Positions 40,814 to 57,537 of a DNA stretch of 64,000 nt are shown piece by piece. The notes beneath the pieces were generated by a model, which ran no database searches, was not told the origin of the DNA, and saw nothing but the letters and a program-made list of their open reading frames with translations. Position numbers and translations under genes: made by a program. The stretch covers positions 1,116,001-1,180,000 of the forward strand of contig NZ_VFMO01000001.1 of the NCBI RefSeq assembly GCF_006715095.1. Reading direction: 5' to 3'. This DNA is from Yimella lutea (GTDB taxonomy: Bacteria; Actinomycetota; Actinomycetes; Actinomycetales; Dermatophilaceae). Position 1 is the stretch's first letter. The number at the start of each line of letters is the position of its first letter.

Positions 40814-41893
40814 GTGGCCCTCACCATCGGAATCGTCGGACTGCCCAACGTCGGCAAGTCCACCATGTTCAACGCTCTGACCAAGAACAATGTGCTCGCC
40901 GCGAACTACCCGTTCGCGACCATCGAGCCCAATGTCGGCGTCGTCCCGTTGCCCGACCCGCGCCTGAAGGTGCTCGCCGGAATCTTCGGTTCCGCGCAGA
41001 TCCTTCCCGCGACGGTCTCTTTCGTCGACATCGCCGGCATCGTCAAGGGCGCCTCGGTGGGTGAGGGGCTGGGCAACAAGTTCCTGGCCAACATCCGCGA
41101 GGCCGACGCCATCTGTCAGGTGGTGCGCGCCTTCGTCGACGACGACGTCCACCACGTCGACGGCAAGGTCGAACCATCGTCCGACCTGGAGACGATCAAC
41201 ACCGAGCTCATCCTGGCCGACCTGCAGACCTTGGAGAAGGCCGTGCCGCGTCTGGAGAAGGAGGTCAAGGGCAAGAAGACCGACAAGGCCGTCCTGGACG
41301 CCGCCGTCGCCGCCCAGAAGATCCTGGAGACCGGTGACCCGCTGTCCAAGCACCCGGGCGAGATCGACCTCGAAGCCGTCCGCGAACTCGGTCTGCTGAC
41401 CACCAAGCCGTTCATCTACGTCTTCAACGTGGACGAGGACCAGCTCACCGACGATGACTTCCAAGCGAAGATGCAGGAACTCGTCGCTCCCGCCGACGCG
41501 ATCTTCCTGAACGCCAAGCTGGAGTCCGAGGTCGCCGAACTGGACGACGCCGAAGCGCGTGAGTTGCTGGAATCAGTCGGCATCGAGGAACCGGGTCTGG
41601 ATCAGTTGGCGCACAAGGGTTTCAACACTCTCGGCCTGCAGACCTATCTGACGGCAGGTCCGAAGGAGACCCGCGCCTGGACCATCCGCAAGGGTTGGAC
41701 CGCGCCGCAGGCCGCCGGTGTCATTCACACCGACTTCCAGAAGGGCTTCATCAAGGCCGAGATCATCTCCTTCGACGACCTCGTCGAGACCGGCTCCGTC
41801 GCCGAAGCCCGCGCCAAGGGCAAGGCCCGCATGGAGGGCAAGGACTACGTCATGCAGGACGGCGACGTGGTGGAGTTCCGCTTCAACGTGTGA
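40814..41893 (+). CDS. ychF: Redox-regulated ATPase YchF
   Basis: This 359-residue Obg-like ATPase has [20 protein letters not shown] (P-loop), [31 protein letters not shown], and a C-terminal TGS domain ending [14 protein letters not shown]. The non-standard G4 motif makes it prefer ATP. GTG 40814 lies 9 bp after TAGACT (40799-40804). The 3' end of this gene appears to be the attachment site of the neighbouring island, yet the gene itself is intact. Confidence 0.96.
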
Positions 41894-41894
41894 A
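41875..41894 (+). other. Candidate left attachment site (ychF 3' end)
   Basis: These 20 bases, covering the last codons and stop of ychF, recur at 56698-56717 with 18 identities. Both copies read FRFNV-stop. The position, directly at the border of the defence genes, fits integration into the 3' end of ychF with the gene left whole. The following 245 bp hold no recognised gene. Confidence 0.6.
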
Positions 41895-42104
41895 TCGGCG
41901 TGTTTGTCCAGGTCAGAGTGAATGTAGGCCCCTGCGGTCCGCACGCAGTCCGCAGGAAACTCCGCCACGCGGTCGATGAGGAGCAGATTCGGACGCCAGT
42001 CGCGTTGTGCTGCGAGCCGGTCGGGTCGGCGGGATCAGGCCCGGTACGCACTCTCCCTCGAGGTCGCCGAGTCGAGGGGCGACAAGACGCAAAGCGACAA
42101 TCGC

Positions 42105-42855: not shown

Positions 42856-44013
42856 GTGCACGCCTACCTCGACAGCGGGCGTCTAAACCGCCTCCGCACC
42901 GCCCGTGCCACCACGCAGTCCGACCTAGCCGCCCAACTGAACACGTCTGTCAGCCTTCTCAATCGGATCGAAAGCGGTCACCAGCAAGTCGACGATGAGA
43001 CGGCGGTGCGGCTCGCGCACGCCCTTGACTGCTCGACCGACGTGCTCGGCCGTCCGCTTCCCGACCAGCTCTACACCCGCCCTTGGCTTCGCGCTTACGC
43101 CGACGCCCCGAAGAAGACTGTCGACGAGTACGTCGCTGACACTCTGCTTGCGATGGAGTTCATCGGTCAGCTTCACCTCAGGCGAATCCCGGAGCGGCTG
43201 CCGTTGTTCGATGGTGATCCTAACAACGACGACGACATCGAGGAGTTCGCACTCGAGGTTCGCGAGGAAGCCGGGGTCGACCCGGTCAAATGGGTGCCGA
43301 ACGTGACCCGAGCTGCCGAGCGTCTCGGATGTGTAGTTCTGCCCCTCGATAGCGAGCTCGGGAAGCACCTGGGCATGTCGATGCACGTCGACGGGGTCTC
43401 AGTTCTGAGGGCGAGCCGTCCGGCGCCGGGCGGTGGCGTCCCAGGAGACCGCCAGCGCTTCACCCTCGCCCACGAGCTCGGCCACGTCACTATGCACGCC
43501 ACCTGGCCTCCGCCTGGCACAGCTGAGCAGGCCAAGGCGATTGAGAAGCAGGCTCATCGCTTCGCCGGCGCGTTCCTTCTCCCTGGGGACGCGTTCCTTA
43601 GTGACCTAGAGGCTTTGGGTGGTCGAGTCACGCTCACTACCCTCGCCAATCTCAAGGGCCGGTGGGGCGTCGCCATCAAGGCGATGGTGGTGCGACTTCA
43701 GAACCTGGGCCGCATCGACGCCGATCAGGCCCGCAGCTTGTACAAGCAGATATCCGCAAGAGGCTGGAACAAGAACGAGCCCGTGACAGTCGGCAACGAG
43801 CGCGCCGTGTGGATGAAGCAGGCGCTTGAGCGGCGATTCCTAGGTGACGCCGACGCTCTGAGCGCGGCGGTACAGCAGTGCGGTCTGGGACGCTCTTACT
43901 TCGAGAGTTGGGTGTCATGGGAACCACTGTCGAGCCTCGATGCCGACGTGCTCGACCTGTCGGCCCGGCGACGATCCGGAGCGCTTCCCAAGGGGAGCCG
44001 AGACCGGCGATGA
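42856..44013 (+). CDS. XRE helix-turn-helix and ImmA/IrrE metallopeptidase fusion
   Basis: This 385-residue protein has an N-terminal XRE DNA-binding domain (RLNRLRTARATTQSDLAAQLNTSVSLLNRIESGHQQV, about 9-46) and an ImmA/IrrE M78 zinc peptidase domain with HELGHVTMHA (about residue 212). Related proteins cleave or de-repress phage or stress regulators. GAAGGAAGG precedes the GTG. Its TGA overlaps the ATG of the OLD-nuclease gene, so regulator and effectors are translationally coupled. It may sense infection and switch the system. Confidence 0.85.
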   Translation: MHAYLDSGRLNRLRTARATTQSDLAAQLNTSVSLLNRIESGHQQVDDETAVRLAHALDCSTDVLGRPLPDQLYTRPWLRAYADAPKKTVDEYVADTLLAMEFIGQLHLRRIPERLPLFDGDPNNDDDIEEFALEVREEAGVDPVKWVPNVTRAAERLGCVVLPLDSELGKHLGMSMHVDGVSVLRASRPAPGGGVPGDRQRFTLAHELGHVTMHATWPPPGTAEQAKAIEKQAHRFAGAFLLPGDAFLSDLEALGGRVTLTTLANLKGRWGVAIKAMVVRLQNLGRIDADQARSLYKQISARGWNKNEPVTVGNERAVWMKQALERRFLGDADALSAAVQQCGLGRSYFESWVSWEPLSSLDADVLDLSARRRSGALPKGSRDRR

Positions 44014-45950
44014 GGTTTTCTCAGCTCCGTCTCAGCAACTTCCAGTCGTTCGGTCCTGGACCGACCGCGATCGAGCTCGAGGACGTCACTTATGTCCTAG
44101 GGCCTAACGGAGCAGGCAAGACAGCGGTCTTGGAAGCGCTCTCGCGACTCTTTAGCCCGATTCTCGCGCAGCGCAAGATCCGAGTTGAGGACTTCCACGT
44201 GCCAGTCGACCGGACGGCTCGCGAGGTTCACGCCGAGCAGCCCAGACTGTGGCTTGAGGTTGACATCGAGTTTCGCGAGGCAGACAGCGACGATGTGCAC
44301 GCATCCGTTCCGCCGAACTTCTCGCACATGACGATCCAGAGCGAGAACGCTGTTCCTCAGGTGCGAGTCCGCCTGACCGCGGTCCTCGCAGCGGATGGCG
44401 AGATCGACGAGAAGATCGAGTACGTCCTAGCTGTCGACGAGGACGACGAGCCAACAAGCTGTGCGGACATGTCGCGATACGACCGCGGCCACATCGAGGT
44501 CCACTATCTTCCGGCGCGCCGGGACCCCGCCGACCACATCTCATACACGACCGCATCGCTCATAGGCCGCACCCTTCGGGCGGCCGACTGGAGTACCGAA
44601 CGCGATTCACTGAACGACCTCATGGCCGACGTAACCGACGTGCTCGTCGGCAACGCCGCCGTTGCGAGAATTGGCACCCAGTTGGCGGAGGAGTGGGCGG
44701 GGCTGCACACGGGGTCCTTCTTCGCCGATCCCTCCATTGCCTTCGGGCGTGGTGAGCTTGAGGGAGTCCTGCGTCAGCTGACGGTGACCTTCTCTCCGTC
44801 GCACCACGAGGCGCCATTGCCGTTTGAACGGCTCAGCGACGGCCAGAAGTCCCTGCTGTACATCTCGATGGTGCTTGCATGGCAGGGGCTGGCTCGGCAA
44901 GTACTCGCCGGCAAGGAACCGTCGCTGGACCCCGATCGCCTGCGGCCGCCCGTCCACACCCTCATCGCGCTCGAGGAGCCCGAGAACAGCCTTGCTCCTC
45001 AATACCTTGGTCGGATCATTCGACAGCTGCGCGGAGCCTGTGAGGAGGGCGACGTGCAGGCACTCATCGCCACCCATACACCAGCACTGCTGCGCCGGGT
45101 TCACCCTGAGTCGATCTGCTTCCTCCGCCTCGACGCTCAGCGAGAAACGGCGGTGCGCCGCATCATCCTGCCTGACGACGATGAGGATGCGGCAAAATAC
45201 GTCCGGGAGGCTGTCCAGGCCTACCCGGAGCTTTACTTCTCCAGGTTGGTTGTGTTGGGCGAGGGAGACAGTGAGCAGGTTGTCCTGCCACGTGTCCTGG
45301 CGGCGTCAGGTGTTGCGGAAGACGACGCATCGGTCTCTGTGGTGCCGTTAGGTGGTCGCCACGTCAATCACTTCTGGCGGTTGCTGAATGGGCTGGAGAT
45401 TCCGTTCGTCACGCTACTCGACCTCGACTCGGGGCGTTTCCACGGCGGATGGGGGCGTGTTCGCAACGCGCTGCGGCAGGTCAACAAGATCAACGCGACC
45501 CCGCCGTTCAAGGAGGAGGCGATCAGTGCTCTTCCTAAGTGGAACGACGACACTGACTTCCCGAAGCTGGACGATCCCAAGTACGAGGCCGGTCGCGGTC
45601 CGGTTGCGGCGCTCGAGCGTCGAGGTGTCTTCTTCTCGGCACCTCTCGACCTTGACCTGATGATGCTTGAGGCATACCCGGATGCGTATGAAGTCGAGGA
45701 ATCCACACCTGACGAGTCGACAATTGTCGCCGTGCTGGGCAAGAGCCACGTCAATGAGGACCGGCTCGGCGATGACCTCCTAGACCTGTTCGACGACTAC
45801 CACGCCAAGTTCGACCTCGCGAGCAAGCCAGCGACGCACCTCGCGGCACTATCCCGGTTGACCGACGAGGAGCTCCTCAATGGTCTCCCTGACGTACTCG
45901 CCAGACTGGTCGAGCAGGTAGAGGCGAAGCTAGCGGAGTTGCCCGAGTGA
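44010..45950 (+). CDS. GajA-like OLD-family ATPase/TOPRIM nuclease
   Basis: This 646-residue protein begins with a RecF/SMC-like ATPase (LRLSNFQSFG, Walker A GPNGAGKT at about 31-38, signature RLSDGQKS near 275, ALEEPENSLAP, switch ATHTPALL) and ends with a TOPRIM domain (VLGEGDSEQ near 415, metal motif LLDLDSG near 470). This is the OLD class 2 architecture. Directly followed by a UvrD-like helicase with GTGA overlap, it matches the Gabija anti-phage pair; GajA is a sequence-selective DNA-nicking enzyme. It is somewhat longer than the described GajA. Confidence 0.88.
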   Translation: MRFSQLRLSNFQSFGPGPTAIELEDVTYVLGPNGAGKTAVLEALSRLFSPILAQRKIRVEDFHVPVDRTAREVHAEQPRLWLEVDIEFREADSDDVHASVPPNFSHMTIQSENAVPQVRVRLTAVLAADGEIDEKIEYVLAVDEDDEPTSCADMSRYDRGHIEVHYLPARRDPADHISYTTASLIGRTLRAADWSTERDSLNDLMADVTDVLVGNAAVARIGTQLAEEWAGLHTGSFFADPSIAFGRGELEGVLRQLTVTFSPSHHEAPLPFERLSDGQKSLLYISMVLAWQGLARQVLAGKEPSLDPDRLRPPVHTLIALEEPENSLAPQYLGRIIRQLRGACEEGDVQALIATHTPALLRRVHPESICFLRLDAQRETAVRRIILPDDDEDAAKYVREAVQAYPELYFSRLVVLGEGDSEQVVLPRVLAASGVAEDDASVSVVPLGGRHVNHFWRLLNGLEIPFVTLLDLDSGRFHGGWGRVRNALRQVNKINATPPFKEEAISALPKWNDDTDFPKLDDPKYEAGRGPVAALERRGVFFSAPLDLDLMMLEAYPDAYEVEESTPDESTIVAVLGKSHVNEDRLGDDLLDLFDDYHAKFDLASKPATHLAALSRLTDEELLNGLPDVLARLVEQVEAKLAELPE

Positions 45951-47620
45951 TCCGGGCAGAGGACTGGCGGCCCGTCGATGACCTCACCCTCGAGCCCAAT
46001 GCGCTCACCGCCGCGACCACAACCGACTTGAGCGTTGTCGTCGCTGCAGGCCCGGGCGCCGGCAAGACCGAACTCCTGGCGCAGCGCGCGGACTTCCTGT
46101 TGCGTACCGGTGAGTGCCCCTACCCACGGCGGATTCTCGCCATCTCCTTCAAGGTCGACGCCGCCCGAAACCTCAGGGAACGTGTACGCAAGCGATCGGG
46201 AGCGCAGCACGCGGCACGGTTCGACAGCTTCACATTCCATGCCTTCGCCAAGCACCTGATCGACAATTACCGGCCAGCGCTAACTGGTCAGAACGAGCTG
46301 CAGCCCGACTATCGCATCGATGCTGGCACTCGCGTCCACGGCGTGCAGATCACGTTCGATGACCTCGTTCCACTCGCACTCGAGATCCTGGAGAACAACT
46401 CGTACGCCCGAGGCGCTCTGCGCCAGACCTACAGCCACGTGTTTCTGGACGAGTTCCAGGACGCCACCAGGAACCAGTATCAGCTCGTGAGAACCGCCTT
46501 CCTGGGCACGAACGCGAAGCTGACAGCTGTCGGGGACGTCAAGCAACGAATCATGGCTTGGGCCGGCGCTCTCGACGGGATCATGAAGAGGTTCTCTGAA
46601 GACTTTGGCGCGGCGTCGTTGCCTCTCTACCAGAACTTCCGGGCCGCGCCGCGCCTTCGTCGAATGCAGAACCGCATGATCGCGGACATGGATCCCGCAG
46701 CCGCCAGCCCAGATGAGGACCTCTTGGGCGACGAGGGTGTCATTCGCGTGCTCCATTTCGACAGCCAGATCGAAGAAGCAGCGGCAGTCGTGGATCTCAT
46801 CGATGGCTGGCTCGATAATGGCGTGCCGCCAAGCGAGATAGCAGTCTTGGTCCGCCAGCAGTCCAAGCAGGTGACCGAGGCGCTTGCGGAGGAACTCCAT
46901 GATCGCGGCATTGCGTACCGCAACGAGCAGGAGAGTCAAGATCTAGCCGCCGAGCCCGCCGCGGCAATGATCTTCAACTTCATGTGGGTCGTGGCTGGCG
47001 AGCGCAATCCCGAGGCGTACGCCGAACTGGTGCGAGTCGCCTCGCGCGCCAGCGCATCTGAAGAAGCAGCGCGTCAGTTCGACAGCCAGCTCAAGCGAGT
47101 ACTCCGGGGCGCGCGGGCACGGGTCCAGATGCCCTCGTTCGCGCGAGAAGACGTCGCTGCCTGGCGGCCAGTCATCACCGAGTTCCTGGACGTCGTGACG
47201 CGCCCAGTGATCAACGCCTTGTCGCCGGCTTACCAACAAGGCACCCGACTTGATGAGGTCATTGAAGGCGCTATGGAGGCGCTCGGAAGAGAGTTGGCCG
47301 TAGACGGGAGCCCTGTGGAAGCACTCAAGCGGCTATCCGAACTAGACGCGGTGCGGATTCTGACGATCCACAAGTGCAAGGGCCTCGAGTTTGAGAAGGT
47401 GATTGTGCTTGGAGTCGAGGAGGAGCTCTTCTGGGGCGACGCGGCTACATCGGAATTCTTCGTCGCGATCTCGCGAGCCAAGGAAGAACTAGTAATGACA
47501 AGTGTCGACTTTCGCGCGAGGCCGAGCACCCCCGTCAAGTACTGGCGCGAGAACCGGTCCACTCACGCCGAGTTCCTCGCCTATGCGGATGACGACCGTA
47601 GGGACGAGCAACCCTTCTGA
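45947..47620 (+). CDS. GajB-like UvrD/Rep superfamily 1 helicase
   Basis: This 557-residue helicase has Walker A AAGPGAGKTELL (about 33-44), motif II LDEFQDATRNQ (about 167), LYQNFRAAPRL, motif V TIHKCKGLEFEKVIVLG and motif VI VAISRAKEEL. The start is GTG 45947, overlapping the GajA-like stop. In Gabija, GajB senses DNA ends or nucleotide depletion products and supports GajA. Length and order fit; it is the last gene before the integrase relic. Confidence 0.86.
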   Translation: MIRAEDWRPVDDLTLEPNALTAATTTDLSVVVAAGPGAGKTELLAQRADFLLRTGECPYPRRILAISFKVDAARNLRERVRKRSGAQHAARFDSFTFHAFAKHLIDNYRPALTGQNELQPDYRIDAGTRVHGVQITFDDLVPLALEILENNSYARGALRQTYSHVFLDEFQDATRNQYQLVRTAFLGTNAKLTAVGDVKQRIMAWAGALDGIMKRFSEDFGAASLPLYQNFRAAPRLRRMQNRMIADMDPAAASPDEDLLGDEGVIRVLHFDSQIEEAAAVVDLIDGWLDNGVPPSEIAVLVRQQSKQVTEALAEELHDRGIAYRNEQESQDLAAEPAAAMIFNFMWVVAGERNPEAYAELVRVASRASASEEAARQFDSQLKRVLRGARARVQMPSFAREDVAAWRPVITEFLDVVTRPVINALSPAYQQGTRLDEVIEGAMEALGRELAVDGSPVEALKRLSELDAVRILTIHKCKGLEFEKVIVLGVEEELFWGDAATSEFFVAISRAKEELVMTSVDFRARPSTPVKYWRENRSTHAEFLAYADDDRRDEQPF

Positions 47621-47687: not shown

Positions 47688-48299
47688 CTACTCGGCGAGC
47701 ATCACGGCGGCCGCGCCGAGAGAGGCGGACATGATCGACTCCGCTGCGTTCCTGGTGCGGTCCTCGGCGGTCGGCCAGAGGTGGGCGTAGGTGTTGAGCG
47801 TCGTGGTCGCCTTCGCATGGCCGACCGAGCGTTGCACAGTCACCACGTCGCACCCTGCGGCGATGAGCCCGGAAGCGTAGAAGTGCCGCAGGTCGTGAAG
47901 CTTGATGCCGCACAGGCCGGCGTCGCGCAGCGTCTTGCGCCACCAGTAGCCGACGGTGTTCTGGTGCGGAGGGTTGTCACCCTCCCCGCCGAAGAGCCAC
48001 CGATCCTTGCCGGTGGTGCCGTGAGTGGTGACGTGTTCGGCGAGCACGTTGACCAGGCTGTCAGCGAGGTAGACGACGCGTTCTGATCCGTACTTCGGGG
48101 CCCGAACGTCGATCGCGCCGCCGTTGACGCGCTGGACTTGGCGGGAGACCTTCAGCGACCTGCGGAGGAAGTCGACGTCGCCAAACTGGACCCCGGCGGC
48201 CTCGCCGAGCCGCAGGCCGGCGAAGGCGCAGAGGGCGATGAACGGCTGGAACCGGTCGTCGGCCACGGCCATGAGCTGCCCCACCTCCTCCGGAGGTCC
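47688..48299 (-). pseudogene. Tyrosine recombinase (phage integrase) catalytic domain, N-terminus lost
   Basis: The visible 200 or so residues are an integrase catalytic domain with Arg in AGLRLGEAAG, HDLRHFYASG (HxxR), the second His in GHAKATTTLNTY and Tyr in the same block, so all active-site residues remain. The arm- and core-binding N-terminal parts are missing: the frame is closed by TGA at 48300-48302, directly after PPEEVGQLMAVADD. Upstream of that stop, in the same frame, is an AbiEi-like fragment. It is unlikely to be an active recombinase. Confidence 0.85.
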
Positions 48300-48494
48300 T
48301 CAGGAGCAGAGGGGCCAGTCGGGAAGCCGGAAGAGGCCGCGGTCGACACGCAGCCAGTTGCCACTGTCGGCGTGGTATTTCTGTGCCTGATAGCTGTAGC
48401 CAAGGTCGAGCGCCTGGGCGGCGGTGAAGTAGCCAACCTGGCTGAACGCAAGGCGCTGGAGGGCCAGCCTTAGGTCCTGTCGTGTGCCGGCCAC
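48300..48494 (-). pseudogene. AbiEi-type antitoxin N-terminal domain, truncated
   Basis: These 64 residues (MAGTRQDLRLALQRLAFSQV, then GYFTAAQALDLGYSYQAQKYHADSGNW, ending RVDRGLFRLPDWPLCS) match the winged-helix N-terminus of AbiEi-family antitoxins, normally 180-300 residues. The rest is missing and replaced by the integrase fragment. The start is GTG 48494, 6 bp after TATGCT (48501-48506). No AbiEii toxin gene is adjacent. Confidence 0.7.
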
Positions 48495-48566: not shown

Positions 48567-50934
48567 TCACGCTGAGTACAGCCACTCTTGAAGTTCGCTG
48601 ATTGCCTGACGCCACCCCTCGACACCGCCGAAGTGCCGTGCCGCTTCGACCGGTGAGCCGAAGTTGCTCAAGGGCGGCACTTGGAAGGCGTAGACGTGGG
48701 TCATCTCCTCGACGCCGTACTCCTCGTAGCGGTCGAGGAGGGCGGAGATGATCTCGCGCGCGGTCGGCACCAGCGCTTCGAGATCGTTGGCGTGGTCCTC
48801 GCGCGCCAGCCGAGCGCGTTCGGCCCTGGTCCGTTGGGGGACGTTCCATGCCGCGTGTGCGAGGACGTCGAACGGGTCAGTATCGGTCGAGAGCTCGAGG
48901 CGCCTCGCCATCTCCTCGATGGAGACGCCGCGGGACGCGAGGCCCTCCTCCAGAACCGCACGTAGCTGGGGATCGGCCCAGCGTGCGCGAAGATCATCGA
49001 TGGTCGGACACAGCACGCGGACCTGGCCGGCCAGATAGTCCGCGTACTCCACGAGGCGGAGGGCGCCCGTGCTGGTGTCGGCGACGTAGTAGGCCTCGGC
49101 GGTAACCGTGACCTCCGTGCCGTCGACGTAGTACTTCCGCGCTGGGGGCTGGTCGAGTTCTCCCTCGGACTGGCTGCGGTCGGAGTCGGGCTCCGGTTCG
49201 CCCAGCGACGGCATCGAGGGGGCGACGTCTCCGGCGTCGCTCTCGACGATCTCGCCGCACTCGTCGATGCGCTCGGTCCGGATGCGCACCGGCTCACCAT
49301 CGAAGCCTGGATCGGAGAAGAGGACAGACGCGCCAACGTAGTCCACGATCTCGAAGGAGTACTTGTCGTTGTCGGGGTACAGACGCGAACCTCGTCCGAC
49401 GATCTGCTTGAACTCGACCGATCGAGCCGATCGGGCGAAACAGGACGACGTACTTCAGGTCCTGGACGTCGATGCCGGTGGACAGCATCCGCGATGTCGT
49501 GGCGACGACGGGGGACGACGACTCCGGGTCACACAATCGGTCGAGTTGACGCCGGCCGGTCTCGCCTTCGGCACTGACGATCCGGACCACCCAGAAGGGA
49601 TCGGCCGCCACCTCCGGCAGATTGTGCGCCACCATGGCCTGCCGCATCTGCTCCGCATGTTCGGAGTCGACGCAGAACACGACGGCACGCCCGGGGCGAT
49701 CGCGGAAGATCTGAGTGAGGTGCCGAGCCGCAGCGTCCGTTCGGCGCAGGAGAGACACGAGGCGCTCAAAGTCACGGGTCGTGTAGAGACCATCCGGGAT
49801 GTCCCGACCAAAGGTGTCGACCTCGCCTGGATCGGGCCGCCAGCCTTCGGCATCGGGAGTCAGTACGACGCGCCGCACGGTGTACGGGGCGAGGTAGCCG
49901 TCCTCGATGCCCTGGCGCAGGGAGTACTCGAACACCGGCTCGCCGAAGTAGTCGTACGTGTCGACGTTCTCGTCGCGTTTTGGCGTGGCGGTCAGGCCGA
50001 GGTGGACTGCGGACGTGAAGCGGTCGAGCACCGCACGCCACGATGACCCGGGCACGGAGCCGCGGTGGCACTCGTCGACGATCACCACGTCGAAGAAGTC
50101 CGGCGGGTAGCCCTCGAACGTCGACTCAGCGTCGTTGCTGTTCTTCAACGACTGGTAGGTGGCGAAGTAGATCTCTCGACCCATGACGGCGTGCCCCTGG
50201 ATGCGCGTCGCGCCCTCACCGAACACGGGTCGGAAGTAGCCATTGAGCGGGGACTTGATGAGCGCGTCGCGGTCAGCGACGTAGAGGATTCGTCGGGGTC
50301 GCTCGGCATCGACAGCCCGCCAGTACGAGAGGAGTTTCCAGCAGAGCTGTAGTGCGGTGAGGGTCTTGCCAGAGCCCGTGGCCATCAGCAGCAGCACACG
50401 AGGCTCGCCGGCGAGGATGGCACGCAGGACGCGGTTGATCGCGACCACCTGGTAGTAGCGCAGCTGCCGTATGGATCCGTCGGCGTTGGTCAGGGTTTGC
50501 GAGAGGGGCTGGGAGAGCGCCGACCGCGCCTCCTCATCCAGGTGGTGGTGGCGGGCGTATCGGTCCCAGAGCTCGGGTGGGGTCGGGAAGGCGTCCAGGT
50601 GTCGCTCGGTCCCCGTCGATAGGTCGCGCTCGATGATGGCGTGACCGTCCGAGGCGATCGCTGTCGGGAGGTCGAGGGCGACGGCGTACTCGATGGCCTG
50701 CTGGAGTCCCTGTCCGGGGCTCGAGTACTCGCGCTTCGCCTCCACCACCCCAACGGGCAGGCCGGGCACGATCTCAAGCAGGTAGTCGACCCGGCTATCG
50801 CCACCGAGGGTGGTGTTGGTGGCAAGGTCCGAGCGGACCACGTACTCGGTGCGGAAGCTGTCCGCCCAGCCGGACTCCACCAATCTCGGAACGACGAACT
50901 CGCGGCAGGTGTCCCGCTCGTTTCGCCCCGTCAT
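48567..50934 (-). pseudogene. Orphan HsdR-like restriction ATPase, one-base frameshift
   Basis: The upstream part (about 500 residues) has an HsdR_N nuclease domain (RVDYLLEI then VVEAKREY, the PD-(D/E)xK site) and helicase motifs LMATGSGKTLTAL, VDECHRGS, LGLTATPKR and TSRMLSTGIDV. At about 49418 one extra G shifts the frame: removing it joins LFRPIGSI to VEFKQIVGRGSRLYPDND and on to DYVGASVLFSDPG and a C-terminal domain of about 240 residues. No hsdM or hsdS is nearby. ATG 50934 lies 6 bp after TAGCCT (50941-50946). It may be a pseudogene or a sequence error. Confidence 0.85.
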
Positions 50935-51046
50935 GCTCAAAGGCTAAGGGGACGCGCAGTGGAGCCGCCGGAACTTGGCGTCCAAGAGGGCCGGAACGCA
51001 GCACGGAAGCACGCGCGCTGTCGGAGGCCTGTGGAACTCTTGCGGC

Positions 51047-51808
51047 GTGAGCGACATAGAAACGATGACGGTGTGGGAACTCCTCCGGGACTACGCCGCG
51101 ACCCAGTCCGGGGCCTTCACTTCGCAAGAGGCGCTCTCGTGGTTTCGCCGCCACGCGCCCGACAAGGCCAACGAGCGGACCATTCGCACTCACATCCGCG
51201 GCGCATCTTGGAACGTGGATAACCGCTCCCAGTTCTCGTCCAAGGAGCCGTTCCTGACCAAGCTCGACCGAGGTCTGTTCCGGCGAGCGCGCCCCGAGGA
51301 GATCGAAGGCTGGCGAGCAGATGTCCCCGCTCCGGCGGTTACACCGCTGCCGTCTGTCCCAGCAGAGGGGGACCCGGCGTCGGAGTGGCACACGGAGGAG
51401 AACACCCAGCGCCTTCTCGTTGAATGGCTCGCTGATGAGGGATGGACCATCGTCCGAACGGCGAACACGGCGACGCGCGAGCACGGCCTCGATGTCGTTG
51501 CCGAGCGCGACGGTCAGCGCCTCGGGGTTGAGGTGAAGGGCTACCCGTCTCGCTTCTATGTCGCCGGTCCGAAGAAGGGCCAGGTGAAGACCAGCACACC
51601 CAAGGAGCAGGCGAAGAAGTGGTACGCGCACGCGCTGGTGCCGGCCATGCGACTTCGGACGCAAGAGCCCGACTCGCTGTCGGTGATGTGCTTCCCCGAC
51701 TTCCCTGTGTACCGGGCTTTGTACGCGGACACAGCTCTGTCGTTGCGCGCGGCGGCCATCGAGGTTTGGGTGGTCTCGCAGAACGGCGGAGTCGAGCGTA
51801 TCGACTAG
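51047..51808 (+). CDS. Winged-helix plus PD-(D/E)xK nuclease-like protein
   Basis: This 253-residue protein has an N-terminal winged-helix-like segment (VWELLRDYAATQSGAFTSQEALSWFRRHAPDKANERTIRTHI) and a C-terminal Mrr/VSR-like nuclease core: ADEGWTIVRTANTATREHGLDVVAERDGQRLGVEVKGYP, where Asp of GLDVV and Glu-Lys of VEVKG are the catalytic residues. GTG 51047 is taken as start, with AACTCT 6 bp upstream. It is divergent from the HsdR-like gene and may be a DNA-modification-dependent nuclease; this is inference from fold only. Confidence 0.65.
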   Translation: MSDIETMTVWELLRDYAATQSGAFTSQEALSWFRRHAPDKANERTIRTHIRGASWNVDNRSQFSSKEPFLTKLDRGLFRRARPEEIEGWRADVPAPAVTPLPSVPAEGDPASEWHTEENTQRLLVEWLADEGWTIVRTANTATREHGLDVVAERDGQRLGVEVKGYPSRFYVAGPKKGQVKTSTPKEQAKKWYAHALVPAMRLRTQEPDSLSVMCFPDFPVYRALYADTALSLRAAAIEVWVVSQNGGVERID

Positions 51809-51909: not shown

Positions 51910-51974
51910 CAGGCCGCAAGTAGTCCCGCAAGGAATCCGGCAGAAACAGAGATCACCAACGACGCCCGACGCTC
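51910..51974 (+). repeat. Direct repeat, copy A, left of the four-gene operon
   Basis: About 65 bp starting CAGGCCGCAAGTAGTCCC align with 56550-56614 at roughly 52 of 66 positions, with two one-base gaps. The rest of the gap 51809-52070 shows no recognised gene. Confidence 0.65.
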
Positions 51975-52070: not shown

Positions 52071-52910
52071 GTGCTGCTTCCTGCAATCGTTCCTCTTCCG
52101 GGGGTCCCGCTTTCGAATGCTATCGAGATGGTTCAGCACTGGAAGTACGAACTGGAGAGGGTCCGCCAGTCATCCGCCGAGGAGAGCCTCGCGACCTACC
52201 AGCGGTGGGCGCCTCTGGCCTCCGAGGTTCTCGGCTCGACGTTCGGCTTGTTCGAGCTTGAGTCTCTGATCGCTACGCTTCGTCACGACACACTGCTGCA
52301 GCTGCACGCTGGTGACAGCCACTCGCTCATCAACGGAGTGATCAGCGCCGAGCTGACCGATCGGATGAGGGCGTTCGACGTCCTACTCCAGTCCCTGAAG
52401 GACCTGGACGCACGGTGCAATGCCCTTCCGAAGTCGTACTCGCCCTCCGTCCTGGTCCCGGACACCAACGTCTTGCTCCACCAGGACGAGCCGTTCGACG
52501 AGCTGGACTGGAAGGCCCTGATCCCAACCTCGGACGACGTGCGGGTCGTGATCCCGATGGTGGTGATCCGCGAGTTGGACCGCCACAAGCGCTCGCCGGC
52601 CAACAACGTCGTGAGCCGCAACAACAAGGAAGCTGTTCGAGATCGTGCGCGCCGCACATCGAGAGAGTTGGGCGTGCTCTTCGCTCGACCCATGGACGTC
52701 GTGACTCTTCACCCGAGAGCGGTGACGATGGAGCTTCTACTCGATTCGGTCGGACACGTTCCTGCCGGGGACCCAGACAGGGAGCTGATCGAGCGAGCGT
52801 CAGCGTTGAAGGGCGTCACCGATCGGAACGTCGCGATCGTGACGAGCGACAACGGCATGAAGTTCGCTGCTGCCGTAGCCGGCATCGACGTCATCAGCAC
52901 GAACAATTAG
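52071..52910 (+). CDS. PIN-domain ribonuclease-like protein
   Basis: This 279-residue protein has a helical N-terminal part (about 1-120, unrecognised) and a C-terminal PIN domain: VLVPDTNVLLHQDEPF (first Asp near 130), VVIPMVVIRELDRHK (Glu near 166) and VAIVTSDNGMKFAAAVAGIDVI (third acidic residue near 264). These are the metal ligands of a PIN RNase. It starts at GTG 52071 with AAGGAAGGG upstream. It opens a tightly packed four-gene unit and has no VapB-like antitoxin next to it. Confidence 0.82.
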   Translation: MLLPAIVPLPGVPLSNAIEMVQHWKYELERVRQSSAEESLATYQRWAPLASEVLGSTFGLFELESLIATLRHDTLLQLHAGDSHSLINGVISAELTDRMRAFDVLLQSLKDLDARCNALPKSYSPSVLVPDTNVLLHQDEPFDELDWKALIPTSDDVRVVIPMVVIRELDRHKRSPANNVVSRNNKEAVRDRARRTSRELGVLFARPMDVVTLHPRAVTMELLLDSVGHVPAGDPDRELIERASALKGVTDRNVAIVTSDNGMKFAAAVAGIDVISTNN

Positions 52911-52919
52911 CGGGGACAC

Positions 52920-53747
52920 GTGGAAGCCAGGAAGAACCCGGAGTATCTGCGCTCCGTGCAGACGGCCGTGATCCAGTTCAAGGAGGTGCTGCAGGAGTAC
53001 CTGGAAGCCCATGTCTTCAACCAGTTCATGGCTCGCGGCATTGCTCCCGCGATCCTGCCCCGGGAGGGGTCAACGGACGAGCAGATCGCACATCTCGCTA
53101 CGTCGGTGGGGCAAGCGGCGGGGCGGGCTGCGAAGGCCCCTGGCCTCACCGGGTGCTACTACGAGGTGCAAAAAGTGGGCCGTGTAGACCCGATCGCAGC
53201 CTGGGCGTCGATGGCACAGCCGAAACCGGTACTCGAACCGCGCAACATCCTAGACGCATGCGATCAAATGATCGGGCGCCTCGACGGAATGATCCTCGAG
53301 GCGGAGGCCGAGGCACCACCGATCCTGGGCGCCGAGGCGATGCACCCACTGATCTGGGGTTCGGCTGCGCCGCTCTGGAAGGACCGCCACTTCCGTCAGG
53401 CTGTCGCCGCTGCTGCGGAGTCGCTGGCCTCCCAAGTCAAGGTGCGCACGAGTCGCTTCGACGTAGCCGAGACTGCGCTCTGGCAAGAGGTCTTCTCGGA
53501 CAAGCCGCCGGCACCTAGCAAGCCGCGGTTGCGATGGGCCGGTGATCCGACCGATCGCACCGTGAAGAACATGAACGACGGCCTGCGTCAGTTCGCTCCT
53601 GGTGTGCAGATGCTCGTGCGCAACCTGGCGACCCACACGACAGGGGAGTGGGAAGAGCAATGTGCCCTGGAGAATCTGCCAACGTTGAGTCTTCTGGCCG
53701 GGTGGGTCAGCCAGTGCGATCTCGTCGAGGCGGATGGAGAGGCCTGA
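52920..53747 (+). CDS. TIGR02391 (Ymh) family protein, HEPN-like
   Basis: This 275-residue protein has a TIGR02391-type C-terminal half: MHPLIWGSAAPLWKDRHFRQAVAAAAESLA, then NMNDGLRQFAPGVQMLVRNLATH, ending ENLPTLSLLAGWVSQC. RNLATH (about 234-239) fits the HEPN RNase motif R-N-x3-H. TIGR02391 proteins recur in restriction and abortive-infection loci. The GTG start is 9 bp after the PIN gene, and the TGA shares a base with the next ATG (TGATG). Confidence 0.78.
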   Translation: MEARKNPEYLRSVQTAVIQFKEVLQEYLEAHVFNQFMARGIAPAILPREGSTDEQIAHLATSVGQAAGRAAKAPGLTGCYYEVQKVGRVDPIAAWASMAQPKPVLEPRNILDACDQMIGRLDGMILEAEAEAPPILGAEAMHPLIWGSAAPLWKDRHFRQAVAAAAESLASQVKVRTSRFDVAETALWQEVFSDKPPAPSKPRLRWAGDPTDRTVKNMNDGLRQFAPGVQMLVRNLATHTTGEWEEQCALENLPTLSLLAGWVSQCDLVEADGEA

Positions 53748-54958
53748 TGGCGGCAAGGGAGACAAGGGCAACGAAGACCGCCAAGAAGGCGCCCGCCAAG
53801 CCAGCTCACCGCAAGCGGCGCAACTCCACGCTGCTGCAAGGCGACGTGGGGGAGAAGATCGTCGCGGACGCCATGCCTGGGCAATGGTTGGTTAGGAAGG
53901 TCGATAAAGACTTCGGTATCGACCTTCACGTCGAGGTCTTCGATTGGGTGCCCGATGACCCAACCGCGGCGGATACGTTGGGGGAGCACTTCTTCGTTCA
54001 GGTGAAGTCTCAGGCGACGCTCAAGACCGTCAGGCACGTCGCCCATAGCCGAGGCAACGTGGCCAAGTACGTCCCAGATCCTGGCGAAGGGGATGCCGTC
54101 GAGTTCAGGGTTGTTGCGTGTTCCCTCGAGGTGGGCGAGCTAATGACCGTCGAGGCGATGGGCAACGCCGTCCCCGTACTCCTGTGCGTCGCCGCGGTCG
54201 ACACCGGGGACGTCTACTACCTGTGTCTGAACGACTACATCTCCAAGGTGCTGCTGCCTAACAACCCGAACTACGCCGCCGAAAACCAACACATCACCGT
54301 TCACCTGCCGACGTGGAACGTTCTCGACCGAGACGACGACAGCATTGGGTATCTCTGGCTGCTCGCTCGACGTCCGAAGTTCTACTCGGCGTTCAACACG
54401 TTCAGCTATCAAAGCCATGAGATGGACTACGTCCATGATCAGCTGCTGCACCTGACCTGGGCGATGGATGACGACGCCGCGCTACCTGTCCCGGACGACA
54501 TCATCACGATGCTCGAGGTCTTCCTGAAATCCAACCTGCGCCTCGACATTTGGGAGCCAAGCGGACCAGCCTACTGGTCTCCCCTCGACGACGTTCAGAA
54601 GGACTTTCTCACCCTCCAGGCGGCTTTGCCCCAGCTTCGCGAGCCGCACAGCGCTGGCCGTCTGATGGCGGTGGCAATGCAGCTGATCCAGTCATTCAAC
54701 CGCGCAGCGAACCTCGGGCGTATGTACGAGGAGCTTTGTCGTGAGTGGCGCTTACCAACCGCTCTCGCCGTCTTGATGGACGATCATCCTGGGCTCAAGT
54801 ACAGACCCGAGGCCGTGCCCAAGGTGATCAAGAAGCGTCCTGCCAGAGAAGCTCCCGCTAAGGCGACGAAGGCTGCACCGGCTAAGAAGACCGCCGCAGC
54901 GAACAAGAGGGGCGCAGCGCCGACTAGTAATTCCGCAGCCAAGAAGGCCAGCTCATGA
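53747..54958 (+). CDS. DUF4365-domain PD-(D/E)xK nuclease-like protein with basic tails
   Basis: This 403-residue protein has a DUF4365 domain (about 25-165): GDVGEKIVADAM, KDFGIDLHVEVFD and FFVQVKSQ, in which Glu, Asp and the QxK form a nuclease-like active site. Both ends are Lys/Ala/Pro-rich and histone H1-like (TKTAKKAPAKPAHRKRR at the start; repeated AKKT/AAKK near the end), suggesting nonspecific nucleic-acid binding. The middle (about 200-330) is unrecognised. ATGA overlap with the next gene. Confidence 0.78.
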   Translation: MAARETRATKTAKKAPAKPAHRKRRNSTLLQGDVGEKIVADAMPGQWLVRKVDKDFGIDLHVEVFDWVPDDPTAADTLGEHFFVQVKSQATLKTVRHVAHSRGNVAKYVPDPGEGDAVEFRVVACSLEVGELMTVEAMGNAVPVLLCVAAVDTGDVYYLCLNDYISKVLLPNNPNYAAENQHITVHLPTWNVLDRDDDSIGYLWLLARRPKFYSAFNTFSYQSHEMDYVHDQLLHLTWAMDDDAALPVPDDIITMLEVFLKSNLRLDIWEPSGPAYWSPLDDVQKDFLTLQAALPQLREPHSAGRLMAVAMQLIQSFNRAANLGRMYEELCREWRLPTALAVLMDDHPGLKYRPEAVPKVIKKRPAREAPAKATKAAPAKKTAAANKRGAAPTSNSAAKKASS

Positions 54959-56238
54959 CGTTGCACCTGCTCGTCGAACTCGTGAACTCCGTGCCGACGC
55001 CGATGCCGTCACCGAGTCCCGGTCTCGAGGGAGGCGGTGGGGCGACCACGCCCTCGTCCACGCCCGCATGGGTCCCGTACCTCACCCTCATCGCAGCGGT
55101 ACTGGCAGCGGGTGTCGCCTTCTTCGCAGCCATCTTGCAGAGAAGGTCCGGTAGGGAGTCAGCCGAGGCCGCTCGTGCGTCAGCCAATGCCGCAAAGAAG
55201 AGTTCCCAAGCGTCGGAGCGGTCGGCAAAGGCTGCCGAGGACTCGGTGGCGCTCAACGCCGAGACGTCGCGAGCTACCGCTGAGCGACTCGACTCCGAGG
55301 CGTTGGGGAAGCGGTTTCAAGACGCCGCTTCGCAGCTCGGCAACGCCAACGCAGCGGTCAGGCTCGCCGGGGTCTACTCGTTGGCTCGGTTGGCGGATGA
55401 TTGGCCGGAGCAGCGCCAAACATGTGTCAACGTTCTCTGCGCGCTGCTCCGGATGCGACCGCAGATGAAGACCTACACGGAGGAGCAGCACTACCCAGTT
55501 GAGTTGCCCGACGACGGTGACCAACAGGTGCGCCGGACGGTCAGTGATCTCATTAGCAACAGGGTCACTGGCACGGACGCCCTGTGGGCGACGTGCGACT
55601 TCGACCTCACCTACGCCCATCTCGTCGACTTCAGGTTGCGAGACGCCACCATCAGCGGGCGATTCATCATGAACGGCGCCACCATCGAGCGGGACTGCTC
55701 GTTCACCCGCACGGTGTTCGGGGGCGGCCTCGACGCACAGGAACTCAGGATCAACGGGACCCTCAAGCTCACCGACGTGTTACCTGGTCCCGGCAAGACC
55801 GTGTCGCTGACCGGCTCGTACATCGATGAAGGGGCCACGCTCGACTTCGTGCTTTCCAAGCCGCCTCCGGCAACAGAGCAGTGGGCGGTATGGCCAACCA
55901 AGATCGTTTGTCGGGGCGAGCTCATTCTCAAGGTCACCAAGACCACTTACGAGCAGGCGACGTTCCACGTCCCCGGGTTGCAGCTCGAGCCCACGGCGAG
56001 CTTCCGGATCATTCAGACGCCTGCGTCCGAAGCGGACAGCTCGAAGCTCCCGAAGATCGAAGCGAAGGAATGGTCAACGACTGCCTCCGCGAAGATCGCG
56101 ATACCCGGGTCGATCCGAAAGAAGCACATCTTCAAAGCGTCCGAGTGGACCGGTGTTCCGCAACCTCAGTTCGAGTACGCGTACGTGACGCCGCCCGACA
56201 TCGATGCGATCTTGGGGTTGGACGATAACGATGCCTGA
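54955..56238 (+). CDS. Membrane protein with degenerate pentapeptide-like repeats
   Basis: This 427-residue protein has a Pro/Gly-rich N-terminal segment, one membrane helix (about 39-61, VPYLTLIAAVLAAGVAFFAAIL), a coiled coil (about 65-115, Ala/Ser/Glu-rich) and FQDAASQLGNANAAVRLAGVYSLARLADDWPEQRQTCVNVLCALL, a block usual in pentapeptide-repeat membrane proteins. Degenerate repeats follow (DLTYAHLVDFRLRDATISGRFIMNGATI). It could be the membrane effector or anchor of the operon. A truncated copy of its 5' end lies just downstream. Confidence 0.7.
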   Translation: MTLHLLVELVNSVPTPMPSPSPGLEGGGGATTPSSTPAWVPYLTLIAAVLAAGVAFFAAILQRRSGRESAEAARASANAAKKSSQASERSAKAAEDSVALNAETSRATAERLDSEALGKRFQDAASQLGNANAAVRLAGVYSLARLADDWPEQRQTCVNVLCALLRMRPQMKTYTEEQHYPVELPDDGDQQVRRTVSDLISNRVTGTDALWATCDFDLTYAHLVDFRLRDATISGRFIMNGATIERDCSFTRTVFGGGLDAQELRINGTLKLTDVLPGPGKTVSLTGSYIDEGATLDFVLSKPPPATEQWAVWPTKIVCRGELILKVTKTTYEQATFHVPGLQLEPTASFRIIQTPASEADSSKLPKIEAKEWSTTASAKIAIPGSIRKKHIFKASEWTGVPQPQFEYAYVTPPDIDAILGLDDNDA

Positions 56239-56286: not shown

Positions 56287-56440
56287 GTGATTGGTGCACG
56301 CCTTGACGTGCCACTCTCACTCGTCGAGTTGTTGGTCGCCGCGCCGACGCCCTTACCCGGTCCTCGCACTGGTTTAGGGGGAGGCTCGGGCACGACGACA
56401 CCCATGACGAGTTCATGCGTGCAGTACGCGGACTGCTCGG
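56287..56440 (+). pseudogene. Truncated duplicate of the 5' end of the preceding membrane-protein gene
   Basis: The translation VPLSLVELLVAAPTPLPGPRTGLGGGSGTTTP parallels LHLLVELVNSVPTPMPSPSPGLEGGGGATTP at the start of the gene at 54955. Similarity stops before the membrane helix. This looks like a partial tandem duplication or the residue of a second cassette. Confidence 0.6.
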
Positions 56441-56549
56441 CCGTCAGCGCTGTTGCCGTCAGGGGCCATTGTGGCACTCGCTGCCCTGCCCGAGAGTCCG
56501 GAGAAGATCAGGCGGAGGAGCTCATTCAAGGGTGTGGCTCGCCTACCCT

Positions 56550-56614
56550 CAGTCCGCAAGAAGTCCGCAAGAAGTCCGGCCGAGACCGACGATCGTCAAC
56601 GACGCTCAACGCTG
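56550..56614 (+). repeat. Direct repeat, copy B, right of the four-gene operon
   Basis: This is the counterpart of 51910-51974 (CAGTCCGCAAGAAGTCC at its start). The copies flank the four-gene operon and the truncated duplicate in the same orientation. No gene is recognised between 56440 and 56698. Confidence 0.65.
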
Positions 56615-56697
56615 CGGTGAACGTGTTTCCGCAGGTCAAACCGTGTTTTCCGGCACCGACCGGCGATGACCAACAACAGCCGAAACCCCGCGTGATC

Positions 56698-56717
56698 GTT
56701 CCGCTTCAATGTCTGAA
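56698..56717 (+). other. Candidate right attachment site (ychF 3'-end duplicate)
   Basis: GTTCCGCTTCAATGTCTGAA matches the ychF 3' end (41875-41894) at 18 of 20 bases; both differences are at third codon positions and synonymous, so both read FRFNV-stop. Defence genes lie to the left, decayed chromosomal genes to the right. Confidence 0.6.
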
Positions 56718-57131: not shown

Positions 57132-57234
57132 ATGACGACGATGAGTGCACGCGAGTTCAATCGCGACGTCAGCGCGGCCAAGCGGGAGGCTGCGCGGGGT
57201 CCGGTGGTGATCACGGATCGCGGCGAGCCGGCGT
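57132..57234 (+). pseudogene. Phd/YefM-family antitoxin, C-terminus deleted
   Basis: MTTMSAREFNRDVSAAKREAARGPVVITDRGEPA is the DNA-binding N-terminal part of a Phd-type antitoxin. The normal continuation into the toxin-neutralising tail is missing; the sequence jumps directly to the second half of a PIN toxin in another frame. Confidence 0.8.
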
Positions 57235-57537
57235 GTGCTCGAGGTCGAGATGGGGATCGCCCGCCTCGGTCGTCGGGACGTGGAGCAAGCGCAGCGTCTG
57301 CGCACATGGCTTGAGGACGACCTGCTCGCAGTGTTCGACGGCCGGATACCCTCGATCGACGTCCCGGTAGCCCAGCGGGCGGCACGGCTTCACGTCCCGG
57401 ACCCGCGGCCCGAGCGGGATGCTCTGATCGCAGCGACGGCCACCGTGCATGGACTGACCGTCATCACACGCAACGTCGCGGACTTCGAACCGATGGGGGT
57501 GGCGCTCATCAATCCGTGGAGTCATGTCGGCGGCTGA
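57235..57537 (+). pseudogene. VapC/FitB-type PIN toxin, N-terminus deleted
   Basis: MLEVEMGIARLGRRDVEQAQ through DALIAATATVHGLTVITRNVADFEPMGVALINPW is the C-terminal three quarters of a FitB-like PIN toxin. The first metal-binding Asp motif (xDTN) is lost with the N-terminus, so it should be inactive. A single deletion explains this and the truncated antitoxin before it. Confidence 0.82.

Follow-up and report, generated by a model that had tools for sequence, protein, structure and literature searches.

A four-gene cassette of predicted nucleases and a membrane protein in a Gabija-containing island of Yimella lutea: one system or stacked modules?

Are four closely packed genes at the edge of a defence island one anti-phage system, or separate parts that stand together? 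In the window (the whole stretch of DNA analysed, 64,000 nt), the ORF list gives four + strand genes that span 52071-56238 and encode a PIN protein, a Ymh-type HEPN protein, a DUF4365 protein, and a one-helix membrane protein:

52071..52910, + strand: gene 1, PIN_4 protein, 279 aa, GTG start (PF13638 60.2 bits, cut-off 21.9)
52920..53747, + strand: gene 2, Ymh-family HEPN protein, 275 aa, GTG start (PF09509 68.8 bits, cut-off 25)
53747..54958, + strand: gene 3, DUF4365 PD-(D/E)xK-like protein, 403 aa from the ATG at 53747 (PF14280 31.4 bits, cut-off 24.3)
54955..56238, + strand: gene 4, membrane protein with one helix, from a pentapeptide-repeat family of actinobacteria, 427 aa, ATG start (alignment A7)

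The original prediction took these genes for one new four-gene system, and the arrangement that it described can be read directly in the sequence. Genes 1 and 2 are separated by a 9-nt gap, genes 2 and 3 overlap at TGATG (53745-53749), and genes 3 and 4 overlap at ATGA (54955-54958). The starts at 52071 and 52920 match those in most aligned relatives, and the mechanical ORF of gene 3 extends further upstream than its ATG. Because of the reading-frame overlaps, the four genes are probably co-transcribed. Such overlaps point to coordinated expression of the whole set in this strain, which counts against reading the genes as separate modules. Even so, the explanation that we prefer, with moderate confidence, is that the four genes are separate anti-phage nuclease modules and a membrane protein, stacked as a cassette in a hotspot at the ychF end, and not one obligate machine.

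Domain families and candidate active sites

The earlier family calls for genes 1 to 3 (PIN_4, Hypoth_Ymh, and DUF4365) were all borne out by scores above cut-off. In gene 1, the PIN_4 domain lies behind an N-terminal half of about 127 aa. The candidate catalytic residues D131, E168, D170, D236, and D260 are identical in 19/19 aligned loci (of 21 PIN loci), and the profile of gene 1 matches the PIN structure of EST1A/SMG6 (2dok, E 0.004). PIN-domain toxins are part of type II toxin-antitoxin pairs. Gene 1 shares with them the PIN fold and conserved candidate acidic active-site residues, but it differs in its long N-terminal half, and no antitoxin domain was found among the four proteins or the DUF7669 neighbor in a Pfam scan of these ORFs. 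A Phd-like piece and a second PIN piece stand separate from the four genes, 0.9-1.3 kb downstream.

Gene 2 had been called a TIGR02391 (HEPN-like) protein with an RNLATH motif. The Ymh/HEPN assignment stands through PF09509, but the NCBIfam model TIGR02391 scored 17.3 bits, under its cut-off of 39.45; a literature search by that name gave nothing. RNLATH is present at residues 234-239, and the R, N, and H of this motif (R234-N-x3-H239) are kept in 18/18 loci and in the 20 rows of alignment A3. The HEPN R...H motif, Ymh HEPN solos, and their restriction-modification (R-M) neighbors have been described (PMC3710099). Gene 2 keeps the R...H, and an R-M neighbor was seen in the relative locus L074. 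Gene 2 is different in that it stands between PIN and DUF4365 genes, and such neighbors were found in 0/18 relative loci.

In gene 3, residues D59, E63, E80, and Q85-x-K87 are identical in 46/46 DUF4365 loci. The predicted Lys/Ala-rich (histone-like) tails were confirmed, with 10 K/R in residues 1-25 and 12 in residues 360-403, and comparable long C-terminal tails are absent in most of the 29 aligned relatives. The C-terminal part is conserved and unnamed (alignment A1). Sequence searches of the PDB with genes 2 and 3 found nothing. The DUF4365 domain with the conserved Q-x-K is shared with SPARDA, and in TmuRE of SPARDA this is the motif that was mutated (Q62/K64; PMC10810196). In contrast to SPARDA, where a short prokaryotic Argonaute goes with a DUF4365-APAZ nuclease, gene 3 gave no sign of being an APAZ-bearing Argonaute partner: it matched none of the Argonaute-associated models in PADLOC, which the positive control, the SPARDA protein of one PIN locus (L069), matched at E 5.7e-139. 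There was also no Piwi/pAgo match among the island ORFs scanned.

Gene 4 has a single strong hydrophobic segment from residue 43. The claim of a membrane protein with degenerate pentapeptides holds as far as this segment and the alignment to a pentapeptide-repeat family, but Pentapeptide_3 scored 18.9 bits, under its cut-off of 27. PADLOC gave only marginal matches for genes 1 and 4 (E 0.03-0.08) and nothing for genes 2 and 3 (E 0.1).

The island at the ychF 3' end

The four genes close the right end of an island of about 14.8 kb that holds Gabija. Congeners are without the island genes. The features of the island are:

41875..41894, no strand: proposed left att repeat, formed by the ychF 3' end; the sole other match in the window at 3 mismatches or fewer is 56698-56717, and 100 shuffles gave none
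41938..41954, no strand: copy of the tandem motif TCCGCA-N5-TCCGCA that marks the left end of the island (sequence match)
42856..44013, + strand: RmrA-like HTH and ImmA/IrrE regulator (PADLOC E 4.7e-60)
43878..45950, + strand: GajA of Gabija, matched from residue 45 of the mechanical ORF (PADLOC E 3.4e-247)
45947..47620, + strand: GajB of Gabija (PADLOC E 2.4e-196)
47688..48284, - strand: short tyrosine integrase ORF, 198 aa (PF00589 70.1 bits)
48300..48494, - strand: AbiEi-like fragment, 64 aa (PADLOC E 3.1e-21)
48567..50940, - strand: type I restriction hsdR, split in two ORFs (NCBIfam EcoAI-type matches for both)
50975..51808, + strand: DUF7669 and Hjc-like protein, 262 nt upstream of gene 1 (PF24706 83 bits, PF01870 21.9 bits)
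51910..51973, no strand: left copy of a direct repeat of about 65 nt with a degenerate tandem motif, just upstream of gene 1 (80% identity to 56550-56613, E 2.5e-9)
56320..56616, + strand: gene 4 remnant, like its 5' part (35% identity to residues 6-103, E 6e-7; DNA alignment)
56550..56613, no strand: right copy of the 65-nt repeat, with TCCGCA-N5-TCCGCA at 56553-56569 (alignment to the left copy)
56698..56717, no strand: copy of the ychF 3' end, proposed right att repeat (18/20 identical)

There are three copies of TCCGCA-N5-TCCGCA in the 3.53-Mb genome and two of them are at the island ends, while a control pattern had none. The repeats are probably att sites or arms. Those of 65 nt enclose the four genes as a single cassette, and this counts against separate modules. 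Gabija is a neighbor in the same island, and weaker GajA and GajB matches are beside the PIN gene of L069, but no Gabija component is among the four genes.

In the reading that we prefer, an integrative island would have inserted at the ychF 3' end, and the four genes would be defence cargo at its right end. The PIN RNase, the Ymh HEPN RNase, and the DUF4365 DNase would be separate toxic effectors, each directed at phage or mobile DNA and acting by abortive infection or by direct destruction of nucleic acid. The membrane pentapeptide protein may partner the PIN protein. The make-up of the island, the domain families, the unvaried candidate active sites, and the separate occurrence of relatives are observed; we infer that the predicted nucleases are active, that they have an anti-phage role, and that the stacking is recent.

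Relatives of the three nuclease families

We collected 85 relative loci (21 PIN, 18 Ymh, and 46 DUF4365). Near-duplicates are counted in these numbers: L101 and L021 are a single place, L115 and L117 share one sequence, and L075/L076 (98%), L123/L124 (96%), L036/L037 (86%), and L128/L130 (85%) are close; some loci are cut short by contig ends. None of the 85 had three or four of the families together. The original prediction had stated beforehand that a four-family order not conserved elsewhere would refute it, and this order was not found in the collections searched.

Relatives mostly occur singly. PIN relatives are on 8 plasmid records (context read in 8/8) and Ymh relatives on 48 (context read in 11/48). 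Other Ymh relatives are behind an hsdM-hsdS-hsdR operon (type I R-M) or beside integrases. Ymh matches confined to the HEPN part were viewed in 1.5-kb flanks in the class sample, and eight such matches of the family sample (L091-L098) were left out. Within the family of G223, Ymh was found in one of 150 genomes, G223 itself. One PIN relative (L069) is in a defence island, behind SPARDA and Gabija-like genes. The same locus also carries an Argonaute-linked type of DUF4365-domain gene, which counts against separate modules. For DUF4365, 31/44 loci have no same-strand ORF within 60 nt of the relative, but the other 13 do, and these again count against that reading. Among viral sequences, gene 1 had no match in the Phages collection and three relatives in IMG/VR viral contigs, two of which are the same sequence; genes 2 and 3 had none in IMG/VR.

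Known-defence models match neighbors of several DUF4365 relatives (10 neighbors, picked by hand, were checked), in agreement with the predicted defence-island setting. Some other neighbors are core genes, and the evidence for a defence role is mechanical only; both points count against the preferred reading. The neighbor scans covered 88 of 164 listed ORFs, with L037 and L101 left out, and the families listed are 25 of 149 for PADLOC and 25 of 92 for Pfam. The non-Argonaute DUF4365 family is a single-gene defence candidate: its candidate active site is unvaried from Actinobacteria to Bacteroidota and cyanobacteria, and several members are beside known defence genes.

Since relatives elsewhere mostly occur separately, the four genes are better read as independent stacked defence parts than as a four-part machine. 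Near-identical proteins are present in metagenomes, and thus close kin of the strain may have the same four-gene set; the sizes of metagenome contigs with PIN matches were not repeated among the listed gene 2 and gene 3 matches, a weak comparison made by eye.

The PIN and membrane-protein pair and other explanations

The only recurring pair was PIN with the pentapeptide membrane family. A gene of this family is present in 4/21 PIN loci, compared with 0/18 Ymh loci and 1/46 DUF4365 loci (7 kb off). Within 14 kb, three co-locations were seen in 10 genomes against 0.019 expected (Poisson 1e-6, rising to 1e-3 if the rate is taken ten times higher), an enrichment that was noticed post hoc and counted with a profile (A7) that includes the adjacent copies. 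At E 1e-12, no copy other than the adjacent one was found in G261 and G509. These observations could point to a core pair: a two-gene unit for defence or toxicity, made up of the PIN RNase and a membrane protein that senses damage or holds PIN, with the Ymh and DUF4365 genes inserted between the two later. We consider this unlikely, as the membrane gene is missing in 17/21 PIN loci and order and strand vary. It adjoins PIN in L070 and L152 (membrane gene first, same strand) and in L121 (divergent), is about 4 kb off on the other strand in L151, and is downstream of PIN in the window. The family is also common on plasmids (134 records), and therefore the L121 pairing is weakened; the identity of L115 and L117 further weakens the case. 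Literature found on pentapeptide repeats together with the PIN domain and phage defense did not deal with this pair. It is similarly doubtful that the PIN RNase and the one-helix pentapeptide protein are an undescribed actinobacterial two-gene anti-phage unit, placed here around a Ymh HEPN protein and a non-Argonaute DUF4365 protein with an unnamed C-terminal domain, and moved as a cassette into the ychF 3' end. The pair can be tested on its own.

A single abortive-infection system formed jointly by all four products is less probable still. The coupled reading frames, all open and full length, the unvaried candidate active sites, the repeat-bracketed cassette, and the near-identical metagenome proteins are consistent with it, but the absence of the set from all 85 relative loci, where each nuclease is mostly alone or with other partners, argues against it. 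Of the original interpretation, the nuclease families, the unvaried candidate active-site residues, and the defence-island setting stand, while the single conserved four-gene system is not supported. It is very improbable that these are plasmid or island maintenance or selfish genes, some decaying, without an anti-phage role, for although plasmids often carry PIN and Ymh relatives and the island has a split hsdR, a short integrase ORF, an AbiEi fragment, and a gene 4 remnant, each of the four frames runs its full length, the candidate active sites do not vary, and defence genes adjoin relatives in several unrelated loci.

Stacked modules therefore remain our preferred explanation. Genes of a defence island whose reading frames are coupled can be independent cargo that has been stacked, which calls for caution in gene-neighborhood discovery. 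A real lead is hereby told apart from a weak one: conservation of the four-gene set was not seen in the collections searched, but two parts are individually testable.

PIN and Ymh fill the same slot on two related Streptomyces plasmids, a further point in favor of separate modules. Homology between PIN and Ymh was rejected as the cause by a negative profile comparison (probability 0.3%). DUF4238 was rejected as a common upstream neighbor of PIN (L118) and Ymh (L125), as a search of L125 with the L118 protein gave nothing at E 1e-8. The L118 and L125 plasmids have a helicase gene that is 79% identical.

Gene order and its conservation

The Yimella lutea genome is a single contig of 3.53 Mb. At 52071-56238 of the window, four genes follow one another on the plus strand; the first two are 9 nt apart, and the next junctions overlap as TGATG and ATGA, as originally read from the sequence.

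52071-52910 (+): gene 1, PIN (PIN_4, Pfam, 60.2 bits)
52920-53747 (+): gene 2, Ymh HEPN (Hypoth_Ymh, Pfam, 68.8 bits)
53747-54958 (+): gene 3, DUF4365 (Pfam, 31.4 bits)
54955-56238 (+): gene 4, one-helix membrane protein (above the cut-off for no Pfam family)

For the TIGR02391 label first given to gene 2, the score of 17.3 bits is below that family's own cut-off of 39.45. The product of gene 4 has a single strong hydrophobic segment starting at residue 43, and it can be aligned with an actinobacterial pentapeptide-repeat family. Against PADLOC, genes 1 and 4 gave only marginal matches (E 0.03-0.08) and genes 2 and 3 gave none.

Relatives of the four genes were collected from genome samples (own genome counted: DUF4365 in 1/394 and 2/149; Ymh in 16/394, 12/149, and 1/150 in another family; PIN in 4/149 and 9/394; membrane gene in 10/149), from plasmid records (PIN 8, Ymh 48, DUF4365 2), from viral contigs (PIN 3), and, for DUF4365, from GTDB contigs (45 loci). 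Because the DUF4365 locus of genome G430 has the same sequence as the Pedococcus cremeus record, the Y. lutea family includes that genome. When co-occurrence was searched using the members collected for each family, none of the 21 PIN, 18 Ymh, and 46 DUF4365 loci carried three or four of the families, which does not support the original prediction of one new abortive-infection system. Pairs of families were limited to two kinds: 4 of the 21 PIN loci also had the membrane family (relatives of gene 4), and one DUF4365 gene had a membrane match at a distance of about 7 kb. At the domain level, one PIN locus (L069) also carries a DUF4365 gene, of the Argonaute-linked kind. It is quite improbable that genes 1-4 form a single four-part machine. 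Each nuclease would most likely be a stand-alone effector destroying RNA or DNA upon infection, and the membrane protein of gene 4 is perhaps tied to the PIN protein.

Candidate catalytic residues and neighbours

PIN enzymes use acidic residues, and the candidates D131, E168, D170, D236, and D260 of gene 1 were invariant in 19 of 19 aligned loci (two of the 21 had no match at threshold). The PIN profile also matched the PIN domain of EST1A/SMG6 (2dok, E 0.004). HEPN RNases use an R...H motif; R234, N235, and H239 of Ymh were invariant in 18/18 loci. In DUF4365, D59, E63, E80, Q85, and K87 were invariant in all 46 loci, and the Q-x-K of gene 3 corresponds, by motif rather than by alignment, to Q62/K64 of TmuRE, the residues mutated in its inactive form (PMC10810196).

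Most DUF4365 genes (31 of 44) had no same-strand ORF of at least 60 aa inside 60 nt, while 13 had one. Among 10 hand-picked neighbours, six matched defence models (CARF6, DrmB, PDC-S57, Upx, DRT, and type I methylase) and four did not. The families listed for the 88 nearest neighbours included further defence models and five phage integrases, and also core genes (gcvP, aconitase). In two alphaproteobacterial loci (L036:5914-9945 and L041:5950-9981), a gene of 675 aa, one matching CARF6, and a DUF4365 relative run tightly together and may form a nucleotide-signalled nuclease system.

The Ymh gene of L074 lies 3' of hsdM-hsdS-hsdR with a 4-nt overlap; those of L073, L075, and L076 are close to integrases, and others are on plasmids. 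On two similar Rhodococcus plasmids and in one genome, a gene for a one-helix protein of 176-191 aa comes next and overlaps the Ymh gene, which makes a Ymh-membrane pair possible. In L069 (8713-16756) the PIN relative lies behind a SPARDA pair (DUF4365-type nuclease and short Argonaute) and weaker GajA/GajB matches, the one in L070 adjoins NERD and integrase genes, and other PIN genes are on plasmids. A PIN gene and a Ymh gene, one on each of the Streptomyces uncialis and S. clavuligerus plasmids, stand ahead of four common genes (80, 72, 65, and 66% identical), as expected for exchangeable cargo.

L123:3745-5237, L124:5989-7355, L073:7900-9278: Ymh gene with overlapping one-helix gene
L127:5896-10001 and L132:5001-9044: same slot of Streptomyces plasmids, taken by a PIN or a Ymh gene

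Ymh HEPN proteins have been described as solos and within R-M operons (PMC3710099), and in Argonaute operons DUF4365 is known to supply the nuclease (PMC10810196, PMC6299218). Searches of open-licence papers, mostly at the level of listings, brought up neither a DUF4365 gene acting alone in defence nor a PIN and pentapeptide pair.

The PIN and membrane genes

In L070 and L152 the PIN and membrane genes are adjacent on the same strand, membrane gene first; in L121 they are adjacent and divergent, and in L151 they are about 4 kb apart. In genomes G261 (9.2 Mb) and G509 (4.0 Mb), the PIN-adjoining copy is the only membrane-family member at E 1e-12. Across the 10 PIN genomes, three co-locations inside 14 kb were observed against 0.019 expected from copy numbers (Poisson 1e-6, or 1e-3 were island crowding to raise the rate tenfold), for a pair that was noticed after the fact and with a counting profile that includes the adjacent copies. 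Against the pair, the membrane gene is missing from 17 of the 21 PIN loci, the orientation varies, and the membrane family is frequent on plasmids (134 records).

The island and its repeats

Genes 1-4 form the right end of a defence island of about 14.8 kb between ychF and a glutaminase gene.

41875-41954 and 56550-56717: ychF 3' end repeat and tandem motif, at both island ends
42856-47620: RmrA-like regulator, GajA, and GajB, a Gabija system (PADLOC), left part
48567-50940 (-): hsdR of a type I restriction system, divided between two ORFs, left part

The left part also holds a short ORF for an integrase, a fragment of AbiEi, and a DUF7669/Hjc-like gene; the scan of island ORFs showed neither hsdM nor hsdS. 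A stretch of 20 nt at the stop codon of ychF (41875-41894) is repeated at 56698-56717 with 18/20 identical; allowing up to three mismatches, the window has no third match, and 100 shuffles gave none. One copy of a tandem motif, TCCGCA-N5-TCCGCA, lies 43 nt past the left repeat, and another precedes the right one by about 130 nt; these are two of its three occurrences genome-wide (control pattern, 0). The repeats and motifs are likely the att and integrase arm sites of an integrative element targeting ychF. An attB of pneumococcal prophages adjoins ychF (PMC8637289). A degenerate copy of the tandem motif, within a repeat of about 65 nt (80% identity), lies directly 5' of gene 1, and therefore genes 1-4 and the remnant of a second gene 4 beside them are bracketed by repeats. 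This inner copy suggests stacked elements.

The ychF-ppk2 interval is 17.5 kb here versus about 7.5 and 5.2 kb in two congeners. When 11 window proteins were searched in these congeners, only ppk2 (both) and the PIN piece at 57235 (35%, one) matched; a separate search with genes 1-4 gave no match. At 57132-57537 (+), overlapping frames encode a PIN-like piece and one resembling Phd/YefM (below cut-off), likely a decayed toxin-antitoxin pair.
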